Assembly (NCBI RefSeq): GCF_947170395.1
Contig: NZ_CAMVTE010000009.1
Span: forward strand, 1 to 64,000
Length of the DNA: 64,000 nucleotides
Direction of reading: 5' to 3'
DNA from: an uncultured Methanobrevibacter sp.
GTDB lineage: Archaea; Methanobacteriota; Methanobacteria; Methanobacteriales; Methanobacteriaceae
In this document: positions 38,481 through 57,649 of the stretch, in pieces
Layout: each line of letters opens with the position of its first letter
Position numbering within the stretch: position 1 is the first letter of the stretch
The notes under the pieces: generated by a model
What the model saw: only the letters and a program-made list of their open reading frames with translations
The model's database searches: none
Told to the model about the DNA's origin: nothing
Made by a program: the position numbers and the translations under genes

Positions 38481-39575
38481 CTATTTAATTTGATTTTCAA
38501 AGACTTCAAGTGCATCCTTAACTACCAAGTCCATATTGTAGTATTTGTATTTTGCAAGTCTTCCCAAAAAGATAACGTTGTCTTCCTTTTCCATTTCCGC
38601 TTCGTACAACTTGAATTTGTCAAGATATTCCTGTGTTGGATACGGATAGCATTTCTCACCGTTGAATCCAGGATATTCCCTCATGATGGCGGTTTTGCCG
38701 TCAACTTCCTGCCAGGTTAACTTTTTAAACTCGGTTATTCTTGTAAAGTAAGGGTCATTCGGATAGTTGACCACAGCAACATCCTGATAGGAATCCTCAT
38801 CTACAATTTCATATACAAAGTTCAGACATCTGTATAACAGTTCCCCGTATTTGTAGTCATAGAAATAGTCGATAGGGCCTGTATAGATAAGGGTTTCATA
38901 ATCTATTTTATCAATGTAGTCCTTATAGTCTGAATTGAGTCCGACATGAATCCTGTCTGATTTGATCATGTTTTCACACATCTTGGTGAAGCCTTCCTTA
39001 GGCATTCCCTGATATGCATCGGCAAAGTATCTGTCGTCATGGTTGAATCTGAATGGAATTCTTGAAATGACTGATGAGCTTAGATTGGCAGCTGAAGTTC
39101 CCCACTGCTTTTCTGTGTAGTTCTTGAATAACTTGTTGTAAATGTCACGGCCGGCATTTTTTAAAACGACATCCTCTGAGGATTTTACCTCATCGATGTC
39201 TTCCTTGTGCTCGTCAATCCACTCCTTCATGGATTCTTCATCCAAATCCAAATCGTAAAGCGCATTTAAAGTGTCAATGCAGATTGGCATCGGCACGAGT
39301 TTCCCGTCAACGTAACTTAGAACCCTGTGGACATAGTCGTTCCATTCTGTAAACTGTGAGAGGTAGTCATGTACCTTTTTGTCGTTTGTATGGTAGATGT
39401 GAGGTCCGTATTTTTGAACAAGAAGTCCGTCATCATAAAAGTCATAAACGTTTCCTCCGATGTGGTTACGCTTTTCTATAATCAGTACCTCTTCATCCAG
39501 TTCGTTTGCAATTCTTTCTGCTATTGTAAGACCGGAAAGTCCGGCCCCTACAATCACGTATTTATAATTAGCCAT
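38481..39575 (-). CDS. glf: UDP-galactopyranose mutase
   Basis: This 364-residue flavoenzyme interconverts UDP-galactopyranose and UDP-galactofuranose. Seen: FAD-binding VGAGLSGLTIAERIA, IIEKRNHIGGNVYD, GPHIYHTN, FKNYTEKQWG, RIPFRFNHDDRYF and the C-terminal GRLAKYKYYNMD. It supplies galactofuranose for surface glycans. It is in the same transcription direction as the GT2 gene just upstream, with a five-base gap, which could use the sugar. Confidence 0.94.
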   Translation of the reverse strand: MANYKYVIVGAGLSGLTIAERIANELDEEVLIIEKRNHIGGNVYDFYDDGLLVQKYGPHIYHTNDKKVHDYLSQFTEWNDYVHRVLSYVDGKLVPMPICIDTLNALYDLDLDEESMKEWIDEHKEDIDEVKSSEDVVLKNAGRDIYNKLFKNYTEKQWGTSAANLSSSVISRIPFRFNHDDRYFADAYQGMPKEGFTKMCENMIKSDRIHVGLNSDYKDYIDKIDYETLIYTGPIDYFYDYKYGELLYRCLNFVYEIVDEDSYQDVAVVNYPNDPYFTRITEFKKLTWQEVDGKTAIMREYPGFNGEKCYPYPTQEYLDKFKLYEAEMEKEDNVIFLGRLAKYKYYNMDLVVKDALEVFENQIK

Positions 39576-39580
39576 AATTA

Positions 39581-40684
39581 TTACTCCTTTTGAATTTGTA
39601 TTTTGGATTCCAGTGCAGTTGTCATGGAAGACAATAACATTCTTGATTTCAAATCGCTTTTATGGATTTTTTTAAGCTTTTTTACCTTTTCAAGCAGCAG
39701 CTTGTTTTCTGCTTTGGTGAAAGGTGAACCTTTCCAGGTGTGCATCCAGTGAAGCAGGTGCGGATTCAGTGAGACAGTCTGCACCTCTTTGGAAAATCCT
39801 TCGGTTTTCTTTCTGCAGTAAATGTAGGCTTCCATCAACTCGTCCAGAAGCCTAACGTTGACAGTGTTTGTAATGGATTTATCATCAGGCAAATCACGAA
39901 TATAATAATCATAAGACATGAAATTATTTAAGTATACAATTCCTTTGGCGTTTAAAAGGGCTTCAAGGGTAAATGCCATGTCGTCTCCGGTAACGTATTT
40001 CTGGAATCTCAAATCATTATCCATTATGAGTTCCCTTTTATAGATTTTACACCATACTGAAGGCTGCATTTTTAAAAGGTCAGGTTCCTGCTCGATATTG
40101 TCGACATGGATTATGTCCAATGGTTTGTCTCTTGGATATGTTACTTCCAGTGTTTTTCCGTATAAAAATCTCTCGACAACATTGTCCCATAGGGCATCGG
40201 GAATATCCAGGAAGTTTGCAGACTCAAAGGTTTCATCAGGATATACACTTTCCAAATCATCCTTATATGGGGAATATGACTTTTGAACGCTTCCACCGTA
40301 TTCGAATATTCTCCTGAATCTTGCGAAAGCCAACTGAACGTCATATTTTTTCACCGCTTCATAGAGCTTTTCACAGGCATCTGGTGTGTATCTGTCATCA
40401 GGGTCTAAAAACATTATATAATCACCGGTACATGCTTCAATACCTGTGTTGCGGGGAGTGTGTGCCCCTCCACTGTTGGTTTTGTGATGAATTGCAACAC
40501 AGCAGTCATATTTTTCAGCATATTCATCGACTACTTCGCCAGATCCGTCGGTTGAGCAGTCGTTGACCATGATTATTTCCAAATTTTCATTTCCGATTGT
40601 CTGGTTTATAAGAGAGTCGATTCCACCTCGGAGGTGGTCTCCAACATTAAAGATTGGCAGGATAATACTTATCTTATCATTCAT
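39581..40684 (-). CDS. Glycosyltransferase family 2
   Basis: This 367-residue GT-A transferase has ISIILPIFNVGDHL, MVNDCSTDGSGEVVDEYA and the DxD region MFLDPDDRYTPDA. There is no membrane segment, so it acts in the cytoplasm on a lipid-linked or protein acceptor. The first 130 residues closely resemble the GT2 encoded at 46015-47052. It overlaps hemD by eight bases and precedes glf, so galactofuranose is a possible donor sugar. Confidence 0.87.
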   Translation of the reverse strand: MNDKISIILPIFNVGDHLRGGIDSLINQTIGNENLEIIMVNDCSTDGSGEVVDEYAEKYDCCVAIHHKTNSGGAHTPRNTGIEACTGDYIMFLDPDDRYTPDACEKLYEAVKKYDVQLAFARFRRIFEYGGSVQKSYSPYKDDLESVYPDETFESANFLDIPDALWDNVVERFLYGKTLEVTYPRDKPLDIIHVDNIEQEPDLLKMQPSVWCKIYKRELIMDNDLRFQKYVTGDDMAFTLEALLNAKGIVYLNNFMSYDYYIRDLPDDKSITNTVNVRLLDELMEAYIYCRKKTEGFSKEVQTVSLNPHLLHWMHTWKGSPFTKAENKLLLEKVKKLKKIHKSDLKSRMLLSSMTTALESKIQIQKE

Positions 40685-46014: not shown

Positions 46015-47052
46015 TTATGATCTAGATTTTCGGTAAATCTTTCTAATTGTAGTATTGTTGTATAAAAAGGAATATATTTCTGATAGAATTATTGCAAGAG
46101 TATAATGTTTTTTTAAAATTAAAAGGTATAATAATTTTAATTCTTTTAAGTCCATTTTTACTTCATCATCAATTATATTTTCAAACTCATTTAATTTTAC
46201 AACACATTCTTTTTTATCTTTTATATTCAAATTTGAAAAAATTAAAAGTAAACTGTTCATGTCTGAAAAAAGGATTCTTTCTTTTGTGTAAGTGATATCC
46301 TTAAATAAATCCAAAATTGCATAAACCCCTCTCAAATAACTGTTGAATTTTTCTAAATCGTGTGTATGAATTAATGATTCACCAGATTCAAAAACATTAT
46401 AGATGTATAATTGGTCATTTGGCAATAATGTAAATTTTTTTGACTTTAAAAGGATACTATAGTAAAAATTAGAATCTTCACATACAGTATCTTCTAAAAA
46501 CTTGATATTATTGTCCATAATTAGTTTTTTATCAAAAATTTTTCCCCATGATGCCACATTGTGATAAGTGGTAATTCTAAAATTTCTTTCATTTAGCATT
46601 GGATTAATATTTACCACATCTGAAGTATCATTGCATTCATGCAAAATATTTATTTTATGCATATCTCCATCAAGATTCCAATAATGGGAGCCCATTACCA
46701 AATCCGATTTTTCACGAGTAATTGTGTTGTAATATAATTCAAATGCATTCGGAAGATATTCGTCATCAGCATCTAAAAAAACTAAATACGGTGCTGTTGA
46801 AGCTTCCATACCTATATTTCTAGGTCTTCCGCAAAAACCTGAATTTTCAGGTAAATGAATTCCAATAATATTCTCATATTTTTCACAATATTCATCAATG
46901 ATTTTTCCAGAATTGTCTGTTGAATTATCATTTACAAGAATCAATTCAATGTTCTCAAATCCTATTGTTTGATTAATGACAGAATTTATAGCAGTTTCTA
47001 AGTATTTTTCAGCATTATAAACTGGTGTAATAACACTAATTTTATAACCCAT
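46015..47052 (-). CDS. Glycosyltransferase family 2
   Basis: This 345-residue GT-A protein has ISVITPVYNAEKYLETAI, LVNDNSTDNSGKIIDEYC and FLDADDEYLPNA. It resembles the GT2 at 39581-40684. The C-terminal third lacks hydrophobic membrane segments and looks helical. It ends the minus-strand CDP-ribitol-type operon after a 97-base gap, so it is probably part of the same surface-glycan pathway. Confidence 0.85.
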   Translation of the reverse strand: MGYKISVITPVYNAEKYLETAINSVINQTIGFENIELILVNDNSTDNSGKIIDEYCEKYENIIGIHLPENSGFCGRPRNIGMEASTAPYLVFLDADDEYLPNAFELYYNTITREKSDLVMGSHYWNLDGDMHKINILHECNDTSDVVNINPMLNERNFRITTYHNVASWGKIFDKKLIMDNNIKFLEDTVCEDSNFYYSILLKSKKFTLLPNDQLYIYNVFESGESLIHTHDLEKFNSYLRGVYAILDLFKDITYTKERILFSDMNSLLLIFSNLNIKDKKECVVKLNEFENIIDDEVKMDLKELKLLYLLILKKHYTLAIILSEIYSFLYNNTTIRKIYRKSRS

Positions 47053-47149: not shown

Positions 47150-47830
47150 TTAGTCCCATCCAATAACATTCCTTTTAGTTTTGATAATTTCTTTAATTGA
47201 TTTTTCAGAGTTCATAAATAAACTAGATGTTCCAGATACGAATATTGTTGCTCCTTTATTATATAATATTGAAGCATGTTCGATAGAAACATTTCCATCA
47301 GATTCAATATCCAAATCTAAATTAAGTTCATCTAAGTATGTTCTCAACTCTTCAACTTTATTTATTGTTTCAGGTATTAATTTTTTACCCGCAAAGCCCG
47401 GAGAGGTGTGCATAACTAAAATACCATCTAATTGGGGAAAATATTCATCTAAACAATGAAAATTTGTCTCAGGGTTAATTGCAATAAATTTTCTGGCACC
47501 TAATCTTGTTAAGTAATCAATACACCCTTGAATTGTATCATTGTTCTCAAAATGGAATGAGACTTGATCTCCTTCTCTTATATCAAACCAAGTCATTTTT
47601 TCTAAAGGATTATTTACCAAAAAATGGTAATCAAATGGAATATCTGTTATTCTTCTCAGACTTTTAACATAATCTGTTCCAAGAGCAAAATTTGGAACGA
47701 ATTGTCCATCCATTATATCAATATGCAAATATTCCAAATTCACTTCTTTAAATTCGGTTAAAAAGTAAAATAATTTATCTAATCCCGCACACATCATTGA
47801 TGCTGAGAGTTTTCCTTTTTTCTTATTCAT
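47150..47830 (-). CDS. Ribulose-phosphate 3-epimerase-like protein
   Basis: This 226-residue TIM-barrel protein shows LSASMMCAG, the metal motif HIDIMDGQFVPN, and DYHFLVNNP with the expected histidine. MHTSPGFAGK replaces the usual VNPGFGGQ, and DIESDGNVS carries the second aspartate. It is divergent from housekeeping Rpe but keeps the key residues. It would interconvert ribulose-5-phosphate and xylulose-5-phosphate or a related sugar phosphate. It overlaps the dehydrogenase gene by eight bases, which suggests supply or editing of that enzyme's substrate. Confidence 0.75.
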   Translation of the reverse strand: MNKKKGKLSASMMCAGLDKLFYFLTEFKEVNLEYLHIDIMDGQFVPNFALGTDYVKSLRRITDIPFDYHFLVNNPLEKMTWFDIREGDQVSFHFENNDTIQGCIDYLTRLGARKFIAINPETNFHCLDEYFPQLDGILVMHTSPGFAGKKLIPETINKVEELRTYLDELNLDLDIESDGNVSIEHASILYNKGATIFVSGTSSLFMNSEKSIKEIIKTKRNVIGWD

Positions 47831-48854
47831 TTTTAAACATAACCTTTAATTTTTTTTCGTTTGAATTTCTTAGATAATCAAAAGCTTTATTATAATCCTG
47901 CATTGAAAATTCTTTACTTATCAATGATTCAAAGGGAATGTCTCCTTCAGTCATTAGATTCAATATTTCTTTCCAATCATTAACTTTTGAACTATAGCTT
48001 GAGTTCCAGATTCCTTTTAAGATAAGTTGTTTTCTCAATATTTTCCAATAAATTTGTTTATCAAGTAAAACATCATCTTTGGGATTCCCAACCAAGATAA
48101 CAGTCCCAAAATTATCTGTCAAATCAATAGTTTGATTGATTGATTCATTATTTCCAACAACTTCGAATACTTTATCAAAAGTTTTATTTTTCAGTTCAGA
48201 TGTTAATAATATATTAAATCCTAATTTCTTTGAAAATTCTAAACTTTCATCGCTTCTCCCTATTACAGTAACATTAGCATTTCTACTTTTAACTATTAAT
48301 GCTATCATCATACCAATAGTTCCAGTTCCACTAATCGCTATATTCTCATCTTCTTGAATATTTCCAATATTAACAGAGTGAATTGCAACGGCTCCCGGCT
48401 CACAAAGAGCAGCAATTTTATAATCCAACTTATCATTAAATAAAACTAAATTCCATTTAGGGACAAGTAAATATTCAGAATATCCTCCATCACATCTGGA
48501 TCCAAAGTAATTGTAAGTAGCACATTGTGCAAATTCTTGTTTTTGGCATGCATCGCATTTAAAACAGGGCATTAATGGAAAAATTGATGTTTTTTTACCC
48601 AATAACTCTTCATCTTCATCATTAACAGCTACAATTTGGCCGGACATTTCATGGCCAGGGATTGTAGGAAAGTTATATGTTCCATTTATAAAAACTCTTT
48701 CAATATCACTAGAACAAATTCCGCAGTATTTTATTTTGACTAAAACATTGTCTTTTGTTAGTTTATAAGTTTCTTTTTTTTCGAATCTTAAATCACCAAT
48801 TCCATATAAGTTTAACACATTCATCAATTTTGGAATTTCTTCAATAGTTTTCAT
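47823..48854 (-). CDS. Zinc alcohol dehydrogenase, TarJ-like (ribulose-5-phosphate reductase candidate)
   Basis: This 343-residue MDR-family protein has the catalytic zinc region CGICSSDIERVF, GHEMSG, four structural-zinc cysteines in PCFKCDACQKQEFAQC, and the NAD(P) loop SGTGTIGMM. The family includes TarJ, which reduces ribulose-5-phosphate to ribitol-5-phosphate, and several polyol dehydrogenases. The choice rests on its neighbours: it overlaps the cytidylyltransferase gene by four bases, as tarI and tarJ pair in bacteria. Confidence 0.75.
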   Translation of the reverse strand: MKTIEEIPKLMNVLNLYGIGDLRFEKKETYKLTKDNVLVKIKYCGICSSDIERVFINGTYNFPTIPGHEMSGQIVAVNDEDEELLGKKTSIFPLMPCFKCDACQKQEFAQCATYNYFGSRCDGGYSEYLLVPKWNLVLFNDKLDYKIAALCEPGAVAIHSVNIGNIQEDENIAISGTGTIGMMIALIVKSRNANVTVIGRSDESLEFSKKLGFNILLTSELKNKTFDKVFEVVGNNESINQTIDLTDNFGTVILVGNPKDDVLLDKQIYWKILRKQLILKGIWNSSYSSKVNDWKEILNLMTEGDIPFESLISKEFSMQDYNKAFDYLRNSNEKKLKVMFKNE

Positions 48855-49573
48855 AAGTCACCAACTTCTTTTTTTAAGATTATATGTTCTGCAAGTTCTA
48901 AATCTGCATCAGTTGTAATTTTAAAATTATTTGTATTTCCTTCAATCATTTTTATCGGATAATTATTCAATGTACAAACTTGAGAGGTCCCGGTAATAAT
49001 ATCTTTTTGGGAGTTAGTTAATCTGCTTTCTAGTTCTATGAATGTTTTTAGATTAAAGCTATCAGGAGATTGGCCATTGAATAATGTCTTTCTAATTGGA
49101 ATTCTATCAACATAATCTCCTTTTTCTGATAATAATATTGTATCATTTACTGGAACGGAAGTTACTGTTGCCCCATATTTTTTTGCTCCTTCAATGTTAT
49201 CTAGAATTATCTTTTCAGTTACAAATGGTCTAACTGCATCATGAATAACAATGATGTCATCATCATTTATCTCACGTACTTTAATGGATTTTATAACATT
49301 ATGAATGGAATCAATTCTTTCAGCTCCACCATTAACTAGGGTAATTTTAGAAATATCGTTTTCGCTAATATGTTTTTCCAGCATGGAATTAACTAAATCA
49401 CTAAATTTCTCATTAACTGCAATATAAATATAATCAAAGCATTCAATCTCAATAAATGTTTTTAAGGTGTAAATTATTATGGGTTTTCCATTTATTTCAT
49501 GATATTGTTTTGGAATATCAAGTTGTTTCATTCGACTTCCAGATCCCCCGGCTAAAATTACACCATAATTCAT
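48851..49573 (-). CDS. IspD/TarI-family cytidylyltransferase (CDP-ribitol synthesis candidate)
   Basis: This 240-residue protein has the nucleotide motif LAGGSGSRMKQLDIPKQY, the IVIHDAVRPFV block and TDADLELAEHI. The family contains IspD (MEP pathway) and TarI (ribitol-5-phosphate cytidylyltransferase). Archaea make isoprenoids by the mevalonate route, so IspD activity is unlikely, and the adjacent TarJ-like gene points to CTP plus ribitol-5-phosphate giving CDP-ribitol. It is coupled to the dehydrogenase by a four-base overlap. Confidence 0.8.
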   Translation of the reverse strand: MNYGVILAGGSGSRMKQLDIPKQYHEINGKPIIIYTLKTFIEIECFDYIYIAVNEKFSDLVNSMLEKHISENDISKITLVNGGAERIDSIHNVIKSIKVREINDDDIIVIHDAVRPFVTEKIILDNIEGAKKYGATVTSVPVNDTILLSEKGDYVDRIPIRKTLFNGQSPDSFNLKTFIELESRLTNSQKDIITGTSQVCTLNNYPIKMIEGNTNNFKITTDADLELAEHIILKKEVGDL

Positions 49574-49671
49574 TACATCACTTCATTAAAATTTTAAATC
49601 ATTTTTATAATAATATTATAATTGAATAATATATTTAAGTATATAAGTTTTATTGAGTTAAATTAAATATT

Positions 49672-50505
49672 TTAATATTTTCCAAAATCTAATTTTTCCG
49701 GAGCGGGTCTAAATCTTTTATTCTTTGGTGGTAATTCCATATAATTTCCATAAAGTCTAGTTAATATTTTATCATAATTGTTGGGAACATTTATTTCAAT
49801 ATTTTCAAATTTACATTTTTTTAAAGGTAAAAAATCTTTTTTATTATAAATTGGCATGTGCATAAGGCTTGGAAAATCACAAACTTCGTTACAATTAATA
49901 TTTTCATATTTTCTGTATGTTTTTATACATCTTTTCTTGATTGTCATTGGGGAAATGGGAATCAATTTTAAAAAATAATATGCGCTTTGCTGAATAATTT
50001 CTTTAATTTTAGATTCATTTTTAAACTTAACCAATGAGTATTGAACCATTTGATTAAGAGTAAATGAACTCCATCTATGAATAAATCTTTTTAATTTATT
50101 ATTTGGGATGTTGTCCATAATAAAGATGTCTAAAAAAATATTCACAGTATAGTCTACTTGTTTAGCCCACCATTCATTGAGAATAGTATTTTTTAGATTA
50201 AATCTTCCCCATGTATAATGATAGGTTTCTTCATTTAGAACATTGATTAGATGGTATTTATCATTAGGGTTATTGCTCATAATACTATTTAACTTCTCAA
50301 AGTCTTCTCTAAACATTATTACATCAATATCGTCATCCCATGGGATAAATCCTTGATGTCGTATTGCTCCAAGTAATGTTCCTCCAATTGCAAAGTAAGT
50401 TATATTATTTTTTTCACAAATTTTTATAAAATCTTTTAACATCATTAATTGGACTTTTTGTAAATGCTTTAGTGTTTCATCATCATATCTTTTTGATTTA
50501 AACAT
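49672..50505 (-). CDS. LicD family phosphotransferase
   Basis: This 277-residue protein has the LicD motif AIGGTLLGAIRHQGFIPWDDDIDVIMFRED and a conserved end RLYGNYMELPPK. It resembles the LicD at 56807-57649 far more than the one at 44903. It is first in the minus-strand operon, so a CDP-ribitol-type donor made by the next two genes is its likely substrate. The acceptor sugar or lipid is unknown. Confidence 0.85.
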   Translation of the reverse strand: MFKSKRYDDETLKHLQKVQLMMLKDFIKICEKNNITYFAIGGTLLGAIRHQGFIPWDDDIDVIMFREDFEKLNSIMSNNPNDKYHLINVLNEETYHYTWGRFNLKNTILNEWWAKQVDYTVNIFLDIFIMDNIPNNKLKRFIHRWSSFTLNQMVQYSLVKFKNESKIKEIIQQSAYYFLKLIPISPMTIKKRCIKTYRKYENINCNEVCDFPSLMHMPIYNKKDFLPLKKCKFENIEINVPNNYDKILTRLYGNYMELPPKNKRFRPAPEKLDFGKY

Positions 50506-50628
50506 AATTCCCCATCAAATTACCATTTTTAAAAATTTAATTAAATCTTATATTTTATTTATGTGTTGGAAATTTTTAAATATTTCTTTTTTTATAAATA
50601 ATATATTATATAATAAAAGGTAATGACT
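50506..50628. promoter_or_regulatory. Divergent promoter region of the two glycan operons
   Basis: This 123-base AT-rich region separates the start codons of the minus-strand LicD and the plus-strand PEP mutase genes. Plus-strand TATA-like ATATATTATATAATA (near 50602) and a GGT site precede the ATG at 50629. The two operons could thus be co-regulated from one control region. Confidence 0.4.
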
Positions 50629-51936
50629 ATGAAATCTGATAAACCTATTGTTTATACTTGTTTTTGTACTGATGTAATCCATGATGGGCACTTAAATTTA
50701 ATTAATGAGGCTAAAAAGTATGGTGAAGTTATTATTGGCGTCCTCTGCGATTCTGAAATGGTTAAATACAATAAATTTCCATTAAAATCAACAGAAGAAC
50801 GTGTTGAATTAGTCAAATCAATTCCAGATATTAAAGAAGTTGTCATCCAAAATCAAGTTATGTATAATGATATTGTAAAAGAATTACGTCCAAATTATGT
50901 TATTCATGGGGATAATTGGTCTGAAGACTCAATGAAAGTTATTAGGAAAAATATTCTAAAAGTTTTAGAGGAATATGGTGGGGAGTTAATTGAAGTTCCA
51001 TATACATTCAATCCTCATGTTCAAAAAATTGACCGGCAAATGAGAGAAAAATTAGCAATGCCCGAACTTAGAAGGGCCAGATTAAGGCAATTATTAGATA
51101 TGGTTCCTATTGTAAAGACAATTGAAGTTCATAGCGGTTTAACAGGTTTAATTGCAGAAAAAACTGTTATTGCTGAGGATGAATACATTGACCAGTTTGA
51201 AGCTATGTGGATTTCTAGTTTATGCGATAGTACAGAAAAGGGAAAACCTGACATTGAACTGGTGGATATGACCTCCAGATTCAGAACTATCACTGACATC
51301 ATGGAAGTTACAACAAAACCTATTATTTTTGATGGGGACACTGGTGGAATTGCAGAGCACTTTGTCTACACAGTAAGATCTCTTGAACGTATGGGAGTAT
51401 CAGCAATTATAATCGAAGATAAAGTGGGTTTAAAGAAAAATTCGTTGTTTGGAACTGAAGTGGAACAAACCCAAGATGATATCGAACATTTCTGTGAAAA
51501 AATAAGAGCTGGTAAAAATGCACAGCTATCAGACGATTTTATGATTATAGCTAGAATAGAAAGTCTTATTCTTGAACAGGGAATGGAAGATGCATTAACT
51601 AGAGCATTTGCATTCAGAGATGCAGGTGCTGATGGAATAATGATTCACAGCAGACGCAAAGAACCTGATGAAATATTGGAGTTCTGCGATAAATTCAGAG
51701 CAAAGGATAAAGAAACTCCAATAATTGTTGTTCCTTCATCATATAATACCATTACAGAAGATGAACTTGTTGAACATGGTGTTAATATTGTTATTTATGC
51801 TAATCAGTTGTTGAGAGCAGCATTTCCTGCAATGCAAAATGCGGCGAAAAGTATTTTAAAATATCATAGAGCACATGAAATTGATGAAGAATTATTGTCT
51901 ATTAAAGATATTATCACATTAATAGATGAATTATAG
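50629..51936 (+). CDS. pepM: Phosphoenolpyruvate mutase with N-terminal cytidylyltransferase-like domain
   Basis: The protein has about 435 residues. Residues 5-135 resemble CTP:glycerol-3-phosphate-type nucleotidyltransferases (IHDGHLNLI with H18/H21, then STEER). Residues 145-435 are the PEP mutase/isocitrate-lyase barrel with FDGDTGG (234-240) and the diagnostic EDKVGLKKNS (263-272), as in true phosphoenolpyruvate mutases. PEP mutase forms the carbon-phosphorus bond of phosphonopyruvate. ATG at 50629 is preferred over 50623, which lies too close to the AAAGGT site. The fused domain suggests later CMP activation of a phosphonate. Confidence 0.9.
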   Translation: MKSDKPIVYTCFCTDVIHDGHLNLINEAKKYGEVIIGVLCDSEMVKYNKFPLKSTEERVELVKSIPDIKEVVIQNQVMYNDIVKELRPNYVIHGDNWSEDSMKVIRKNILKVLEEYGGELIEVPYTFNPHVQKIDRQMREKLAMPELRRARLRQLLDMVPIVKTIEVHSGLTGLIAEKTVIAEDEYIDQFEAMWISSLCDSTEKGKPDIELVDMTSRFRTITDIMEVTTKPIIFDGDTGGIAEHFVYTVRSLERMGVSAIIIEDKVGLKKNSLFGTEVEQTQDDIEHFCEKIRAGKNAQLSDDFMIIARIESLILEQGMEDALTRAFAFRDAGADGIMIHSRRKEPDEILEFCDKFRAKDKETPIIVVPSSYNTITEDELVEHGVNIVIYANQLLRAAFPAMQNAAKSILKYHRAHEIDEELLSIKDIITLIDEL

Positions 51937-51944
51937 AGAGTCAC

Positions 51945-52673
51945 ATGTCAAAATATGCTATATTATCAGATATTCATGGAAACCTATTTGCTCTAAAAGA
52001 AGTAATCAATGATTTAAATAATCAGAATATCGAATCAGTTATTCTTTTAGGGGATTTGATAGATTATGGGATGCAATCCAATGAAGTAATTGAGTTTATT
52101 GAAAATAATTTATCAGATAAAATTATTTGCAGTATTTGGGGCAATCATGAAAAAGCTATTCTTACAAAAGATTTTAATCATTTTTCAAGTCAAAGAGGAA
52201 TAGATTGCGCAAAATTTACAGCTTCACAGTTAAATGAAGATTCTAAAAATTATTTGAATAAATTAACTCAAGAAGGTAAATATCAATTTGATTTGGATGG
52301 AAAACGGATTTTGGCAGTTCACGGTTCTTTGAGTGATTGTTATTGGAAAGCTATTTTTCCGGATAATTTAAATGGAGATTATTCTGAATTTGACATTGTT
52401 TTATCAGGCCATTCTCATTATCCTCACGTTTTTCAAAAGTTTTATGAGGTGGACAATCCTGAAATGAGAAATAAAAAAGCTGTTTTATTTATTAATCCGG
52501 GCTCTGTTGGACAACCTAGAAATCAGAATCCTTATGCTCAATATGCAATTTTAGACACAGAATCAATGAGTGTGTCTTTAAAAGCAGTGAAATATCCTAA
52601 AGAAAAAGCCATGGCTTTGTATAATGGCAGTGTTGATGAATTTTACATGAAAAGATTAGAAAATGGAATTTAG
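51945..52673 (+). CDS. Calcineurin-like metallophosphoesterase
   Basis: This 242-residue protein has all five motifs: LSDIHGN, LGDLIDYG, WGNHE, a histidine in AVHGS, and SGHSHYP. It resembles the YfcE/ApaH-like group that cleaves phosphodiesters or phosphomonoesters. The gene starts eight bases after pepM, so a role in the phosphonate pathway (for example recycling CMP or pyrophosphate products or cutting a phosphonate ester) is plausible, but the substrate is unknown. Confidence 0.82.
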   Translation: MSKYAILSDIHGNLFALKEVINDLNNQNIESVILLGDLIDYGMQSNEVIEFIENNLSDKIICSIWGNHEKAILTKDFNHFSSQRGIDCAKFTASQLNEDSKNYLNKLTQEGKYQFDLDGKRILAVHGSLSDCYWKAIFPDNLNGDYSEFDIVLSGHSHYPHVFQKFYEVDNPEMRNKKAVLFINPGSVGQPRNQNPYAQYAILDTESMSVSLKAVKYPKEKAMALYNGSVDEFYMKRLENGI

Positions 52674-52691
52674 AAAATGGGGTAAATAATT

Positions 52692-53696
52692 ATGAAAGTT
52701 TTGTATGTAATTAGCGGTGTTACTGGAATGACTGGTAATGAGTTAGTAAGACAGCTCATTAATCAAAGTGATGATGAAGTTGAAATTATCGGTTTTGATA
52801 ACTTTTATGCTTCTTCAATTGATACTGTTGCAGATTGTTTGGATAATCCCGGTTTTACTTTTTTTGAGTATGATTTAAATAACTCAGAACAGATGGGTGA
52901 AATTGAAACTTTGGTTGTAAGATCTAAAAGTGAATTTGATGAGGTAATCTACATTAATTGTGCGGCTGTTGTTCACACAGAACATTTCTATAATGTTTAT
53001 GAAACCTACGAAACCAATGTGGTTGGTATGAATGACTTTTTAGCCCAGGCCATCCGTGTGGGTGCTGATAAATACATTAACTGCTCTACTTCTGAAATTT
53101 ATTCCATGAACTCCTGGAACGAAGACGGAGGAGTAAAAGAATCAGATTACATTACCATGGCAGATGCGGAGCACAGCCAAAGAACCAGTTATGCAACAGG
53201 AAAACTATTGACTGAGTTTTTCATGAAAGATGCAGTTGACAACGGTAAAATCAAAGGCTGTTCCATTCGTTTTGCTAATGTTTACAGTAAGGATGAAAAA
53301 TACCCAAAACACATCATACCTCACATAATCGACAGTTTCAAAAATACTGGGGAAGTAACATTACTTGAAAACTCCAAAAAGAACTGCAGAACATTTTTAA
53401 ACAATTGTGACAGCTGCAGTGCAGTATTAGCATTGGCAAAAACAGATTCAGCATTAGACGGTACAATTTACAACGTCGCAACAGATGAAGAAATATCAAT
53501 CATCGATTTAACTAAACTGATTGCTGAAAAAATGGGTATCGATGAACCTGTCATTAAATTTGAAGGTTACAGAGAATCTGATCCTGAAAGAAGATTATTA
53601 TCCACTGAAAAATTAAGAACTAAAACTAATTGGGAGCCAATTGTTGATTTGGATAAAGGATTGGATGAATGTGTTGAAAATTATACTAAAAATTAG
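52692..53696 (+). CDS. NAD-dependent sugar epimerase/dehydratase
   Basis: This 334-residue extended SDR has the loop GVTGMTGNELVRQL and the active-site YATGK in RTSYATGKLLTEFF. The C-terminal part (EGYRESDPERRLLSTEKL, then TNWEPIVDLDKGL) is typical of nucleotide-sugar epimerases and dehydratases. It starts after a GGGGTAAA site. In this operon it probably makes the sugar that carries the phosphonate, though it might act on the phosphonate itself. Confidence 0.82.
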   Translation: MKVLYVISGVTGMTGNELVRQLINQSDDEVEIIGFDNFYASSIDTVADCLDNPGFTFFEYDLNNSEQMGEIETLVVRSKSEFDEVIYINCAAVVHTEHFYNVYETYETNVVGMNDFLAQAIRVGADKYINCSTSEIYSMNSWNEDGGVKESDYITMADAEHSQRTSYATGKLLTEFFMKDAVDNGKIKGCSIRFANVYSKDEKYPKHIIPHIIDSFKNTGEVTLLENSKKNCRTFLNNCDSCSAVLALAKTDSALDGTIYNVATDEEISIIDLTKLIAEKMGIDEPVIKFEGYRESDPERRLLSTEKLRTKTNWEPIVDLDKGLDECVENYTKN

Positions 53697-53706
53697 AGGG
53701 TTTTAA

Positions 53707-54477
53707 TTGAAAATCGCAATTATCACAGTGGCTGGAATTTCTTCCAGATTCAACAAGAACATTCCGGAAGATGAAAAAATACTCAAATGCCTGTATTATA
53801 ATGAAAAACCACAGGACACATTAATTTATCAAATGCTTGAAAAATTGGAATATGCCGACAGCATCATTATTGTTGGAGGATATAAATTCCAGGATTTAAA
53901 AGCCTACATCAACAAACAAATTCCACAGAACTTGCAGGAAAAAATAATTACTGTTGATAATCCTCATTATCATGATTTAAGTTCGGGTTATAGCTTATAC
54001 ATGGGCATTAAAGAAGCATTGGATAATTTTAATGACATAAATGAAATATTATTCGTTGAAGGCGACTTGGACATTGACAGCGAATCATTCTCAAACGTTG
54101 TCAATTCTAAAGCGAATGTTTTAACATATAATCATGAACCGATTTATTCAAACAAGGCAGTAGTGCTATATCAAAATGAAAAAGACGACTATCATTATTT
54201 ATTTAACAGTGACCACGGAATGTTAGCTTTAGATGAACCTTTTAAGGCTATTTTTAATTCAGGTCAGGTTTGGAAATTCCAAGATATCGATTTGCTTAAA
54301 AAGGCAAACGATAACTTCAAGGAAAACTTAATAGAAGACACCAATCTAGGAATAATCCAAAAATATTTTGATTTAATAGACAATAACTCAATTGAAGTGA
54401 TTGGTTTTAGCCACTGGGTAAACTGCAATACACGTAAAGATTATGAATTTATAAAGAAATACTGGAGTGAAATATAA
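53707..54477 (+). CDS. LicC/PntC-like nucleotidyltransferase
   Basis: This 256-residue protein has a degenerate NTP-transferase start (ITVAGISSRFNKN at about 7-18), the LSSGYSLYMGI block at 91-101 seen in phosphocholine-type cytidylyltransferases, and GDLDID at 119-124 in the metal position. The start is TTG at 53707. In this context it is a candidate for CTP-dependent activation of a phosphonate, as PntC does for 2-aminoethylphosphonate. It is coupled to the next gene by a one-base overlap (TAATG). Confidence 0.7.
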   Translation: MKIAIITVAGISSRFNKNIPEDEKILKCLYYNEKPQDTLIYQMLEKLEYADSIIIVGGYKFQDLKAYINKQIPQNLQEKIITVDNPHYHDLSSGYSLYMGIKEALDNFNDINEILFVEGDLDIDSESFSNVVNSKANVLTYNHEPIYSNKAVVLYQNEKDDYHYLFNSDHGMLALDEPFKAIFNSGQVWKFQDIDLLKKANDNFKENLIEDTNLGIIQKYFDLIDNNSIEVIGFSHWVNCNTRKDYEFIKKYWSEI

Positions 54478-55658
54478 TGAAAACTTTAGATGAAAGATTA
54501 AAAATAGTTGAAAAACACGTTAAAGATGATGAAATTACAATAATGATTATAGGTTTAGGAAGTGTCGGAACATATTTACTGGATTATCTTGTTAGCATGA
54601 ATGATCCTGCAGTTAAAATAGTTGTTGTGGGAAGAAATGCAGATAAGATGCAGTCCGATGTTAATATTGTCCGTGTTGCAGGCCTTATACGTGAAGTAAA
54701 TAAGTCACAAATCATTGTTGAAGGCGGAGTTGATTTAGAAGACATTGATTCAATCGAAAAAGCAATTGCTAAACATAGTCCTGATTTTATTGTAAACTCA
54801 AGCAGAGCATATGCAGGAATAAAATACGGCAGTATCTCCTGGCACAATATAAGAGCATACGGTATCTGGACACCATTATCAATTAAATTCACAAAAAATA
54901 TAATGGGGGCATGCGACAAGGCAGATACTGATGCGGTTGTAATTAACACTTCATATTCCGATGCGGTTATTCCTTGGCTTAAAAGTGCAGGAAAAGCTTA
55001 TCCAGACTTTGGAAGCGGAAACCTAAATCACCTGATTCCAAGAATGAAATTTGCAGTAGCAAATAAATTAGGCGTAGACGATTTCTGGAATGTTGGATTT
55101 AATTTTGCTGCAGGACATTTCCATGATGTCGTAATAAGTAAAGAAGGCCAAACCGAAGGTGTCACATTACCATTGAAAGTTTATTACAATGGTGAAGAAC
55201 AGGACATTCCTGCCGATGAGATTTTCAGCGAATGTTCCATCAGTATGCCTGTCGACCAAAAAAGAAACATGATGAACGCATCCAGTAATTACAGGATTAT
55301 CAAAGCTATTCTTGACGCAATCAGAACCGGTGAAAACCAACAAATATTCTCACCAGGAGTATTCGGCAATATCGGAGGATACCCAGTAATCATCGGTTAT
55401 AAAGATGATGAAATTTCTGCTTGGATTGACGAGTCAGTATTCAGTTTTGAAGAAATGAATCGTGCAGACAGAGAATCCATTGCATTGGACGGTGTTGAAG
55501 ATATTATTGACGGCACTTTATATTACACTGACGATTTAATCAAAAAAGTGAAAGATGTGTTCGGCGCAGATCTTCCAAAAACTGTCGCATATGAAGACAT
55601 TGAAAAAACCGCCAATTTCCTGATTGAAGAAATTATCAATCCGCAATTAAACAAATAA
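54477..55658 (+). CDS. Unassigned Rossmann-fold oxidoreductase in phosphonate operon
   Basis: This 393-residue protein has an N-terminal dinucleotide-binding loop IIGLGSVGTYLLDYL at about 23-37 and acidic/basic positions that could fit NAD(P). The rest contains NSSRAYAGIKYGS, VGFNFAAGHFHDVV and SPGVFGNIGGYPV, which I cannot assign to a family. It lies between the nucleotidyltransferase and the phosphonopyruvate decarboxylase genes. It is the best candidate in the operon for reducing phosphonoacetaldehyde or oxidising a sugar or phosphonate, but this is inference from position only. Confidence 0.6.
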   Translation: MKTLDERLKIVEKHVKDDEITIMIIGLGSVGTYLLDYLVSMNDPAVKIVVVGRNADKMQSDVNIVRVAGLIREVNKSQIIVEGGVDLEDIDSIEKAIAKHSPDFIVNSSRAYAGIKYGSISWHNIRAYGIWTPLSIKFTKNIMGACDKADTDAVVINTSYSDAVIPWLKSAGKAYPDFGSGNLNHLIPRMKFAVANKLGVDDFWNVGFNFAAGHFHDVVISKEGQTEGVTLPLKVYYNGEEQDIPADEIFSECSISMPVDQKRNMMNASSNYRIIKAILDAIRTGENQQIFSPGVFGNIGGYPVIIGYKDDEISAWIDESVFSFEEMNRADRESIALDGVEDIIDGTLYYTDDLIKKVKDVFGADLPKTVAYEDIEKTANFLIEEIINPQLNK

Positions 55659-55675
55659 ATAAGAGATAGTATATT

Positions 55676-56794
55676 ATGAATGTAGAAGATTTTGTAAACG
55701 TTTTGGATTCAGATTTTTACACTGGAGTTCCAGATTCACAATTGAAAGCGTTATGTAATTATTTGATGAATACTTATGGCATTGATAGAAAACATCATAT
55801 TATTGCTGCAAATGAAGGTAATTGCGCGGCATTAGCTGCAGGTTATCATTTGGCTACTGGTAAAGTTCCTGTTGTTTATATGCAAAATAGTGGTGAGGGC
55901 AATATTATTAATCCTGTTGCTTCTTTACTTAATGATCAGGTTTATGCTATTCCTTGTATTTTTGTTATCGGTTGGCGTGGCCAGCCAGGTGTTCATGATG
56001 AACCTCAACATATCTATCAGGGCGAAATAACCTGCAAATTACTTGATTTAATGGATATTAAGAATTTTGTAATAAGTAAAGATACTACTGTGGGCGAGCT
56101 TGAAGAAATAATGGTTAAATTCCGAGAAATCTTAGAATCTGGTAAGAATGTTGCTTTTGTTGTTGAAAAAGGAGCATTAACATATGATGTTAAAGTGAAA
56201 TACAGTAACGATAATGATTTGGTTCGAGAAGAAATCATTGAACATATTGTTGATGTAACTGGTGAGGATCCTATTGTTTCCACTACCGGTAAGGCCAGCC
56301 GTGAGTTATTTGAAATTAGGGAGAGAAATAATCAGTCTCATAAATATGATTTTTTAACCGTTGGGTCTATGGGTCATACTTCGTCAATTGCATTAGGGGT
56401 TGCTATCAACAAGCCTGATGAAAAGGTTTGGTGTATTGATGGTGACGGTTCTGTTTTGATGCATATGGGGTCCATGGCTGTTGCGGGTAATTTCAAACCT
56501 GGAAATTTGGTTCATGTTGTGATTAATAATGGTGCTCATGAAACTGTGGGGGGAATGCCTACTGTTGCTGTCAGTATGGATTTGGTTGAAATTGCAAAAT
56601 CCTGTGGTTATGAGTATGCAGTATCAGTTGATAATTTTGATGATTTGGACGTGGAACTTGAAAAAGTCAAATCAATGGATAAATTTTGCTTTATTGAAGT
56701 ATTGTCATCAATTGGCGCTCGTGATGATTTAGGAAGGCCAACAACAACAGCCTTGGAAAATAAAGAGAATTTCATGAATTTTTTAAAAGAGTAA
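55676..56794 (+). CDS. aepY: Phosphonopyruvate decarboxylase
   Basis: This 372-residue ThDP enzyme converts phosphonopyruvate to phosphonoacetaldehyde, pulling the unfavourable PEP mutase reaction forward. Seen: the N-terminal YTGVPDSQLK, catalytic-type E47 in AANEGNC, GQPGVHDEPQH and the ThDP/Mg motif CIDGDGSVLMHMG (from 253) ending at VVINNG. Length and single-chain layout match bacterial Ppd. Its presence with pepM is the standard signature of phosphonate synthesis. Confidence 0.92.
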   Translation: MNVEDFVNVLDSDFYTGVPDSQLKALCNYLMNTYGIDRKHHIIAANEGNCAALAAGYHLATGKVPVVYMQNSGEGNIINPVASLLNDQVYAIPCIFVIGWRGQPGVHDEPQHIYQGEITCKLLDLMDIKNFVISKDTTVGELEEIMVKFREILESGKNVAFVVEKGALTYDVKVKYSNDNDLVREEIIEHIVDVTGEDPIVSTTGKASRELFEIRERNNQSHKYDFLTVGSMGHTSSIALGVAINKPDEKVWCIDGDGSVLMHMGSMAVAGNFKPGNLVHVVINNGAHETVGGMPTVAVSMDLVEIAKSCGYEYAVSVDNFDDLDVELEKVKSMDKFCFIEVLSSIGARDDLGRPTTTALENKENFMNFLKE

Positions 56795-56806
56795 TTAAGT
56801 GATAAC

Positions 56807-57649
56807 TTGAAATATACCGAATATGATGAAAAAATCTTAAAACATTTGCAGAGTCTTGAATTAATGATTTTAAAGGAATTCATTAAGATTTGTGAAGAGA
56901 ATAATTTAACTTATTATATGTATGCCGGTACTCTTTTAGGAACTATCAGGCATAACGGATTCATTCCTTGGGATGATGATTTGGATGTAATAATGTTTAG
57001 AGATGATTTTGAAAAATTTAAACAAGTTTTCATTTCCAATCATCCTGATAAGTTAAAATTATTGTCCATTGAAACTGAAGAAGAGTATTTTCATCTTCTT
57101 TCAAAATTAATGCTTAAAGATACTCTTTTTGAAGAAGACTGGGTAAATCAAGTTGATTTCAATATTGGTGTTAATATAGATATTTTTGTTTTAGATGATT
57201 TAAGCAACAGTAATTTTAAAAGAAATTATCAGCTTAAAAAGGCCTTTTTATACAATAAACTTTTGATAATGTCAAAAATTAAATTAGATGATTTGCCTTT
57301 CTTAACTAAATTAATAACACATTCAGGTTATCATATTTTAAATTTATTGGGGATTAAACCTAAATGGATTAATAAAAGATGCTTGAATTTTTTAAGTAAA
57401 TATCGGGATGAAAATGCAGAATGTGTTTTTGATATTTCAGCCACAGCTGAAGAATACCCTCAGATTTTTAATAAAAAGAAATTTAAAGAGGTTAAAAGAG
57501 CAACATTTGAGGATATTGAAGTTAATGTGCCTGGAAATTATGATGAAATTTTAAAAAGTCTTTATGGTGATTATATGCAATTGCCTCCAAAAGAAGACAG
57601 GTATAATCATATAACTGAAAACTTGGATTTCGGACCTTACGCACTGTAA
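56807..57649 (+). CDS. LicD family phosphotransferase (phosphonate operon)
   Basis: This 280-residue protein has the LicD core YAGTLLGTIRHNGFIPWDDDLDVIMFRDD and the C-terminal SLYGDYMQLPPKED. The TTG start follows GTGATA. It is the last gene of the phosphonate operon. By analogy to LicD using CDP-choline, it should move the CMP-activated phosphonate onto a glycan. The T-rich region after the stop is a likely transcription end. Confidence 0.85.
   Translation: MKYTEYDEKILKHLQSLELMILKEFIKICEENNLTYYMYAGTLLGTIRHNGFIPWDDDLDVIMFRDDFEKFKQVFISNHPDKLKLLSIETEEEYFHLLSKLMLKDTLFEEDWVNQVDFNIGVNIDIFVLDDLSNSNFKRNYQLKKAFLYNKLLIMSKIKLDDLPFLTKLITHSGYHILNLLGIKPKWINKRCLNFLSKYRDENAECVFDISATAEEYPQIFNKKKFKEVKRATFEDIEVNVPGNYDEILKSLYGDYMQLPPKEDRYNHITENLDFGPYAL

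Follow-up and report, generated by a model that had tools for sequence, protein, structure and literature searches.

A predicted three-gene CDP-polyol module in Methanobrevibacter and Clostridia, separate from TarI–TarJ and possibly directed towards a CDP-hexitol

In the CDP-ribitol pathway of Staphylococcus aureus wall teichoic acid, a surface-polymer locus pairs TarI (structure 6xhp), a cytidylyltransferase of the IspD/TarI family, with the zinc dehydrogenase TarJ (6xh9). An IspD-family enzyme of ∼240 amino acids (aa) likewise accompanies a reductase in AbpA/AbpB of Streptococcus pneumoniae 17F and 24F, where the product is a CDP-pentitol other than CDP-ribitol (PMC10118250). In Methanobrevibacter, homologues of teichoic-acid genes and a high wall phosphate content were reported in 2010; that the walls contain phosphate in teichoic-like amounts, in unidentified polymers, had been reported long before (PMC2812497). 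Here we describe a locus in 64,000 nucleotides (the window, meaning the whole stretch analysed) of contig NZ_CAMVTE010000009.1 from an uncultured, gut-type Methanobrevibacter sp. (assembly GCF_947170395.1), which encodes a LicD-family phosphotransferase, an IspD/TarI-family cytidylyltransferase that we call TarI-B, a zinc-dependent dehydrogenase and an epimerase of the Rpe/AlsE superfamily.

The last three genes differ from TarI–TarJ in that the dehydrogenase lies on the side of GatD, the cytidylyltransferase belongs to a sister group of TarI and an epimerase has been added. From AbpA/AbpB, as those are described, they are set apart by a GatD-like zinc enzyme as the reductase and by the dedicated epimerase; there is no reductase of the short-chain dehydrogenase/reductase (SDR) type in the window module. 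A sequence-only reading had proposed four genes with overlapping starts and stops that follow the logic of teichoic-acid ribitol synthesis. Open reading frames and Pfam and NCBIfam matches bear out the four genes, with their coordinates, strand and families, and all four are in frame; a CDP-polyol pathway of teichoic-acid logic also stands. The overlaps are real between TarI-B and the dehydrogenase (4 bp, ATGA) and between the dehydrogenase and the epimerase (8 bp), but not for LicD, which is separated from TarI-B by a 98 bp gap.

Our best explanation, held at a little short of even confidence, is that the three genes form a dedicated CDP-polyol module distinct from TarIJ. Its most likely route, in the service of a surface polymer, starts at fructose 6-phosphate and passes through allulose 6-phosphate and a hexitol phosphate to end at CDP-hexitol. 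The genes and their families, their intact predicted catalytic and zinc residues, their conserved linkage and their separation from TarI, TarJ, IspD and Rpe are established; we infer the substrates, the order of the steps and the final acceptor. The epimerase would convert D-fructose 6-phosphate to D-allulose 6-phosphate, the GatD-like dehydrogenase would reduce this at C2 to a hexitol phosphate of the allitol or D-altritol type, and the TarI-like enzyme would use CTP to form CDP-hexitol. The hexitol phosphate would then be moved onto a surface glycan by LicD or, as in a second archaeal genome (G038), by a transferase of the TagF/TarL type. Slightly more tentatively, we envisage that this CDP-hexitol pathway, in archaea as in clostridia, puts allitol or altritol phosphate into a surface polymer, and that the genus swaps CDP-polyol cassettes at one locus. 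We know of no natural glycopolymer that contains such a polyol. A biosynthetic conversion of fructose 6-phosphate to allulose 6-phosphate has a precedent in AgmD of angustmycin synthesis (PMC8599513).

All three genes occur in both archaeal cases, the window and G038, a second Methanobacteriaceae genome (81–89% identity), and in 11 loci of Clostridia. With the dehydrogenase as sole query, a scan of 84,980 bacterial and archaeal species genomes gave seven loci, all in Lachnospiraceae, and in every one the epimerase, TarI-like and dehydrogenase genes are adjacent; four more Clostridia loci hold the full set. Within 391 Clostridia genomes, the 14 best dehydrogenases are all encoded near a TarI-like gene or an epimerase, as against two of the next 16, both near an epimerase and none near TarI. 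Two genomes (G368 and G494) have TarI and the dehydrogenase together and a module-type epimerase elsewhere. The nearest bacterial relative (L164; 62%, 50% and 46% identity for epimerase, dehydrogenase and TarI) has TarI fused to a teichoic-type transferase of family PF04464 (Glyphos_transf), with an ABC exporter adjoining, and in L167 TarI is fused to the dehydrogenase; these fusions tie the functions together. Chance clustering was rejected on the recurrence of the module in such distant bacteria. One clostridial module (L163:8875-16796) lies directly downstream of a gene for an 1814-aa flagellin, a context that suggests flagellin modification.

Evidence at the hexose level comes from the epimerase. 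Its catalytic residues H36, D38, H69 and D178 are invariant (alignment A3) and are shared with AlsE (3ct7), as are the length and residues of its phosphate loops. The loop after beta-8, SGTSSLF, exceeds that of Rpe by one residue and equals that of AlsE in length. Escherichia coli AlsE reportedly takes hexulose 6-phosphates by virtue of a beta-8 loop one residue longer than that of Rpe. When 44 sequences were aligned, the loop was short in 19 of 19 housekeeping Rpe and long in AlsE, in all 13 module enzymes and in two unlinked module-type copies, as well as in eight enzymes from dehydrogenase/epimerase pairs that lack TarI. The beta-6 (PGFAG) and beta-7 (DGN) loops of the module epimerases are also AlsE-like, and across the alignment both loops divide in the same way, except at beta-6 in L178. 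In phmmer alignments, the beta-8 loop of the window enzyme matches 3ct7 with no gap and the Rpe structure 2fli with one. A tree made without the loop requires only a single change of loop length, and places all 19 housekeeping Rpe on one side of a branch (support 93/91) and the window epimerase on the other.

A natural control for the loop pattern is provided by a probable ribitol operon of Ligilactobacillus salivarius, in which a mannose-type phosphotransferase system (PTS), a TarJ-type dehydrogenase, transketolase and phosphoketolase accompany a short-loop Rpe; this operon resembles the ribitol operon known from L. casei. Furthermore, the bacterial module carriers already have a housekeeping Rpe, and the extra epimerase therefore best suits a sugar phosphate that is not part of the pentose phosphate pathway: in such bacteria it would be unneeded for a pentulose phosphate and needed for allulose 6-phosphate. 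Curated models were dropped as a means of telling AlsE from Rpe because neither equivalog is reached (TIGR01163 for Rpe, 163.6 against a cut-off of 212.6; PRK09722 for AlsE, 144.2 against 271), the broader NF004076 being satisfied at 170.8 (cut-off 165); the fold search was dropped because both structures fit. Dehydrogenase/epimerase pairs with a long loop and no TarI (L169–L175, L177 and L178) are often found near DeoR-like regulators, kinase or PTS genes; they probably serve polyol catabolism and are the likely source of the module.

The closest solved relative of the dehydrogenase is E. coli galactitol-1-phosphate 5-dehydrogenase, GatD (4a2c, 156 bits; the next scores 95), which works on a hexitol phosphate/2-ketohexose-6-phosphate pair, and S. 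aureus TarJ 6xh9 is not among its 60 best solved relatives. In the dehydrogenase tree, the TarJ clade (6xh9 with the archaeal core TarJ, 100/100) excludes the window enzyme, which falls in a GatD-side clade (100/100); it is GatD-like and not, as the sequence-only reading had it, TarJ-like. Compared with GatD itself, the window enzyme scores far below the equivalog cut-off (190.2 against 550 bits) and has a biosynthetic rather than a PTS catabolic context. The residues expected to bind catalytic zinc (C47, H68, E69 and E152) and structural zinc (C97, C100, C103 and C111) are invariant across the dehydrogenases of the module family.

Several observations weigh against a hexulose substrate. The module epimerases and AlsE form no joint clade, the window enzyme being ∼31% identical to AlsE and set in a different gene neighbourhood; NCBIfam rpe models outscore the AlsE model on it, and the fold search places 2fli first, above 3ct7. 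The long loop may be ancestral, the loop rule reportedly comes from a comparison of E. coli AlsE with Streptococcus pyogenes Rpe, and one long-loop epimerase/dehydrogenase pair (L177) stands beside a ribulokinase. GatD likeness alone is no proof of a hexitol, because in Listeria a GatD-like dehydrogenase adjoins a short-loop Rpe. Finally, the archaeal cytidylyltransferases closest to TarI-B (G043, G126 and G096; 55–59% identity) have an SDR reductase alongside.

This last point favours a serious, if less probable, rival, namely that the same module makes a pentitol, the epimerase turning ribulose 5-phosphate into D-xylulose 5-phosphate on the way to CDP-D-arabinitol or CDP-xylitol. S. pneumoniae AbpA is said to use D-xylulose 5-phosphate. 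In serotype 17F, CDP-D-arabinitol is formed by the IspD-family AbpA with a reductase (PMC10118250). TarI is also beside an SDR reductase in a capsule locus of Parabacteroides distasonis, which further encodes an epimerase with the long loop and two transferases of the PF04464 type. Family searches, on which all our statements of absence from the genome are based, found neither a transketolase nor any Rpe other than the module epimerase in this archaeon, so that xylulose 5-phosphate would here need the module epimerase. Against a pentitol stand the AlsE-type phosphate loops of all module epimerases and the housekeeping Rpe of the bacterial carriers; the archaeal SDR-type loci, moreover, lack an epimerase, though their genomes also lack Rpe.

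We regard it as improbable that the module provides another route to CDP-ribitol, in which the epimerase would supply ribulose 5-phosphate from xylulose 5-phosphate. TarI-B does exceed the cut-off of NF001183, named for ribitol-5-phosphate cytidylyltransferase (238 bits against 166), but this is a subfamily model whose cut-off a GpsA-associated copy also passes (285 bits). Its best solved relatives are four TarI structures (6xhp, 4jis, 3f1c and 2vsh). In a tree of 53 sequences, however, these four and the conserved archaeal core TarI form a clade (100/99) that leaves TarI-B out; it falls in the sister clade (98/93), together with one protein from Clostridia and four related archaeal proteins, and its identity to the core TarI is 37–42%.

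A bona fide TarI–TarJ pair is present on a different contig of this genome (G000:C48:5893-7612, L036). The TarJ homology of the dehydrogenase in this core pair was established on the copy of a relative, G043 (L041:9428-11147), where TarJ matches 6xh9 at 371 bits. The core archaeal TarI is present through most of Methanobrevibacter with TarJ alongside; ribitol, if made, probably comes from this pair, which is a better candidate for archaeal CDP-ribitol than the window module. Proteins of the Rpe family were found in only three of 139 Methanobacteriaceae genomes: this one, G038, whose epimerase belongs to the same cassette (89% identity), and G025. The G025 protein (L056, G025:C212) is an ordinary short-loop Rpe in a genome with 5% contamination, and may be acquired or foreign sequence. 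Weaker matches in the family sit in frames of ∼410–430 aa, which we read as the hexulose-phosphate-synthase half of Fae–Hps; genomes with Fae–Hps should obtain ribulose 5-phosphate without an epimerase, and would need none for ribitol, and no transketolase was found to make xylulose 5-phosphate. The earlier assignment to ribitol is doubtful because a ribitol pathway requires no epimerase, and it is opposed as well by the non-TarJ dehydrogenase, the AlsE-type epimerase, the placement of TarI-B and the genuine TarI–TarJ pair elsewhere.

That TarI-B is an isoprenoid IspD acting on methylerythritol phosphate, as Pfam's name for its family would imply, is refuted, and the sequence-only reading was right to doubt it: the tree sets TarI-B outside a clade (100/99) of ten housekeeping IspD and B. 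subtilis IspD, its score against the ispD equivalog TIGR00453 is below the cut-off (154.4 against 181.3 bits), and family searches of the genome found no IspF and, for DXR, only a 34-residue fragment within a 313-aa frame.

A locally built profile found no PF04464 protein in the window, which leaves LicD as the local candidate for transfer of the polyol phosphate, or else of a phosphonate or choline-type group. It shares its domain with FKTN and FKRP, which transfer ribitol phosphate from CDP-ribitol (PMC4873967), and weakly matches fukutin-related protein 6kaj (E 1.4e-5). It may instead serve a phosphonate or choline-type neighbour operon, which its context also fits, since related genomes carry LicD copies, 66–76% identical to it, next to three different polyol cassettes. 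At G038 there is no LicD and a PF04464 protein takes its position; LicD, counted by the sequence-only reading as part of the unit, was accordingly rejected as a fixed fourth member. PF04464 CDP-glycerol:polyglycerophosphate transferases occur in 120 of 139 Methanobacteriaceae genomes, with up to 14 per genome.

Teichoic-type genes were already known in Methanobrevibacter; in the literature searched we found no description of the variant with an epimerase, of its distinctness from TarIJ or of the swapping of cassettes. Our analysis divides these genes into a genus-wide TarI–TarJ pair for ribitol and swappable cassettes (GatD-like with epimerase, SDR or GpsA-like), whose position near LicD and phosphonate or choline-type genes predicts strain-specific surface chemistry. 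Should the product be a hexitol phosphate, both the activated sugar alcohol and this use of an AlsE-type enzyme would be new; should it be arabinitol or xylitol, a rare CDP-pentitol would have a second route. Other cassettes include archaeal TarI-B genes beside an SDR reductase without an epimerase (L039:9061-10866, L038:7356-9131 and L040:4844-6859), which are reminiscent of AbpA/AbpB for CDP-D-arabinitol, and a GpsA-like glycerol-3-phosphate dehydrogenase beside a TarI-family enzyme (L050:7983-9672, L052:8319-9995 and L054).

Table 1. Predicted features of the locus (window coordinates).
Feature	Position	Strand	Evidence
LicD-family phosphotransferase	49672..50505	minus	PF04991, 145 bits (gathering score 22.6)
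TATA-like element CTTATATAC, possible own promoter of the three-gene unit	49647-49639	minus	sequence reading
IspD/TarI-family cytidylyltransferase (TarI-B), predicted CTP:polyol-phosphate cytidylyltransferase	48851..49573	minus	PF01128, 134 bits; NF001183
Zinc-dependent medium-chain dehydrogenase, GatD-like, predicted polyol-phosphate	47823..48854	minus	ADH_N + ADH_zinc_N
Rpe/AlsE-superfamily ketose-phosphate 3-epimerase, predicted	47150..47830	minus	PF00834, 150 bits
Family 2 glycosyltransferase, downstream	46015..47052	minus	PF00535, 118 bits
Divergent phosphonate-biosynthesis operon	50623..57649	plus	TIGR02320, 411 bits, and TIGR03297, 463 bits, both above cut-off

The TATA-like element (Table 1) lies in the gap between LicD and TarI-B. 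With 29% GC, the unit is richer in AT than the window as a whole (34% GC). The glycosyltransferase gene, 97 bp past the epimerase gene, probably belongs to the same surface-glycan locus. The divergent operon is a neighbour outside the polyol module and encodes a PEP (phosphoenolpyruvate) mutase with an N-terminal cytidylyltransferase domain, a phosphoesterase, an NAD epimerase, a DUF6564 protein, a dehydrogenase, a phosphonopyruvate decarboxylase and a second LicD. This operon with its PEP mutase/cytidylyltransferase fusion is kept in several relatives (L050, L051 and L052); in L038 and L039 it is replaced by genes for a methyltransferase, an aminotransferase, a CTP_transf/GFO_IDH fusion and LicD. 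An Rfam search of 43–60 kb of the window gave no match, and a search for McrA found none in the 89%-complete assembly; we take the host to be a methanogen because it is related to the Methanobacteriaceae set and because the window encodes an archaeal PheS. In the same region, at 38481-40684, a UDP-galactopyranose mutase gene (GLF) adjoins one for a family 2 glycosyltransferase.

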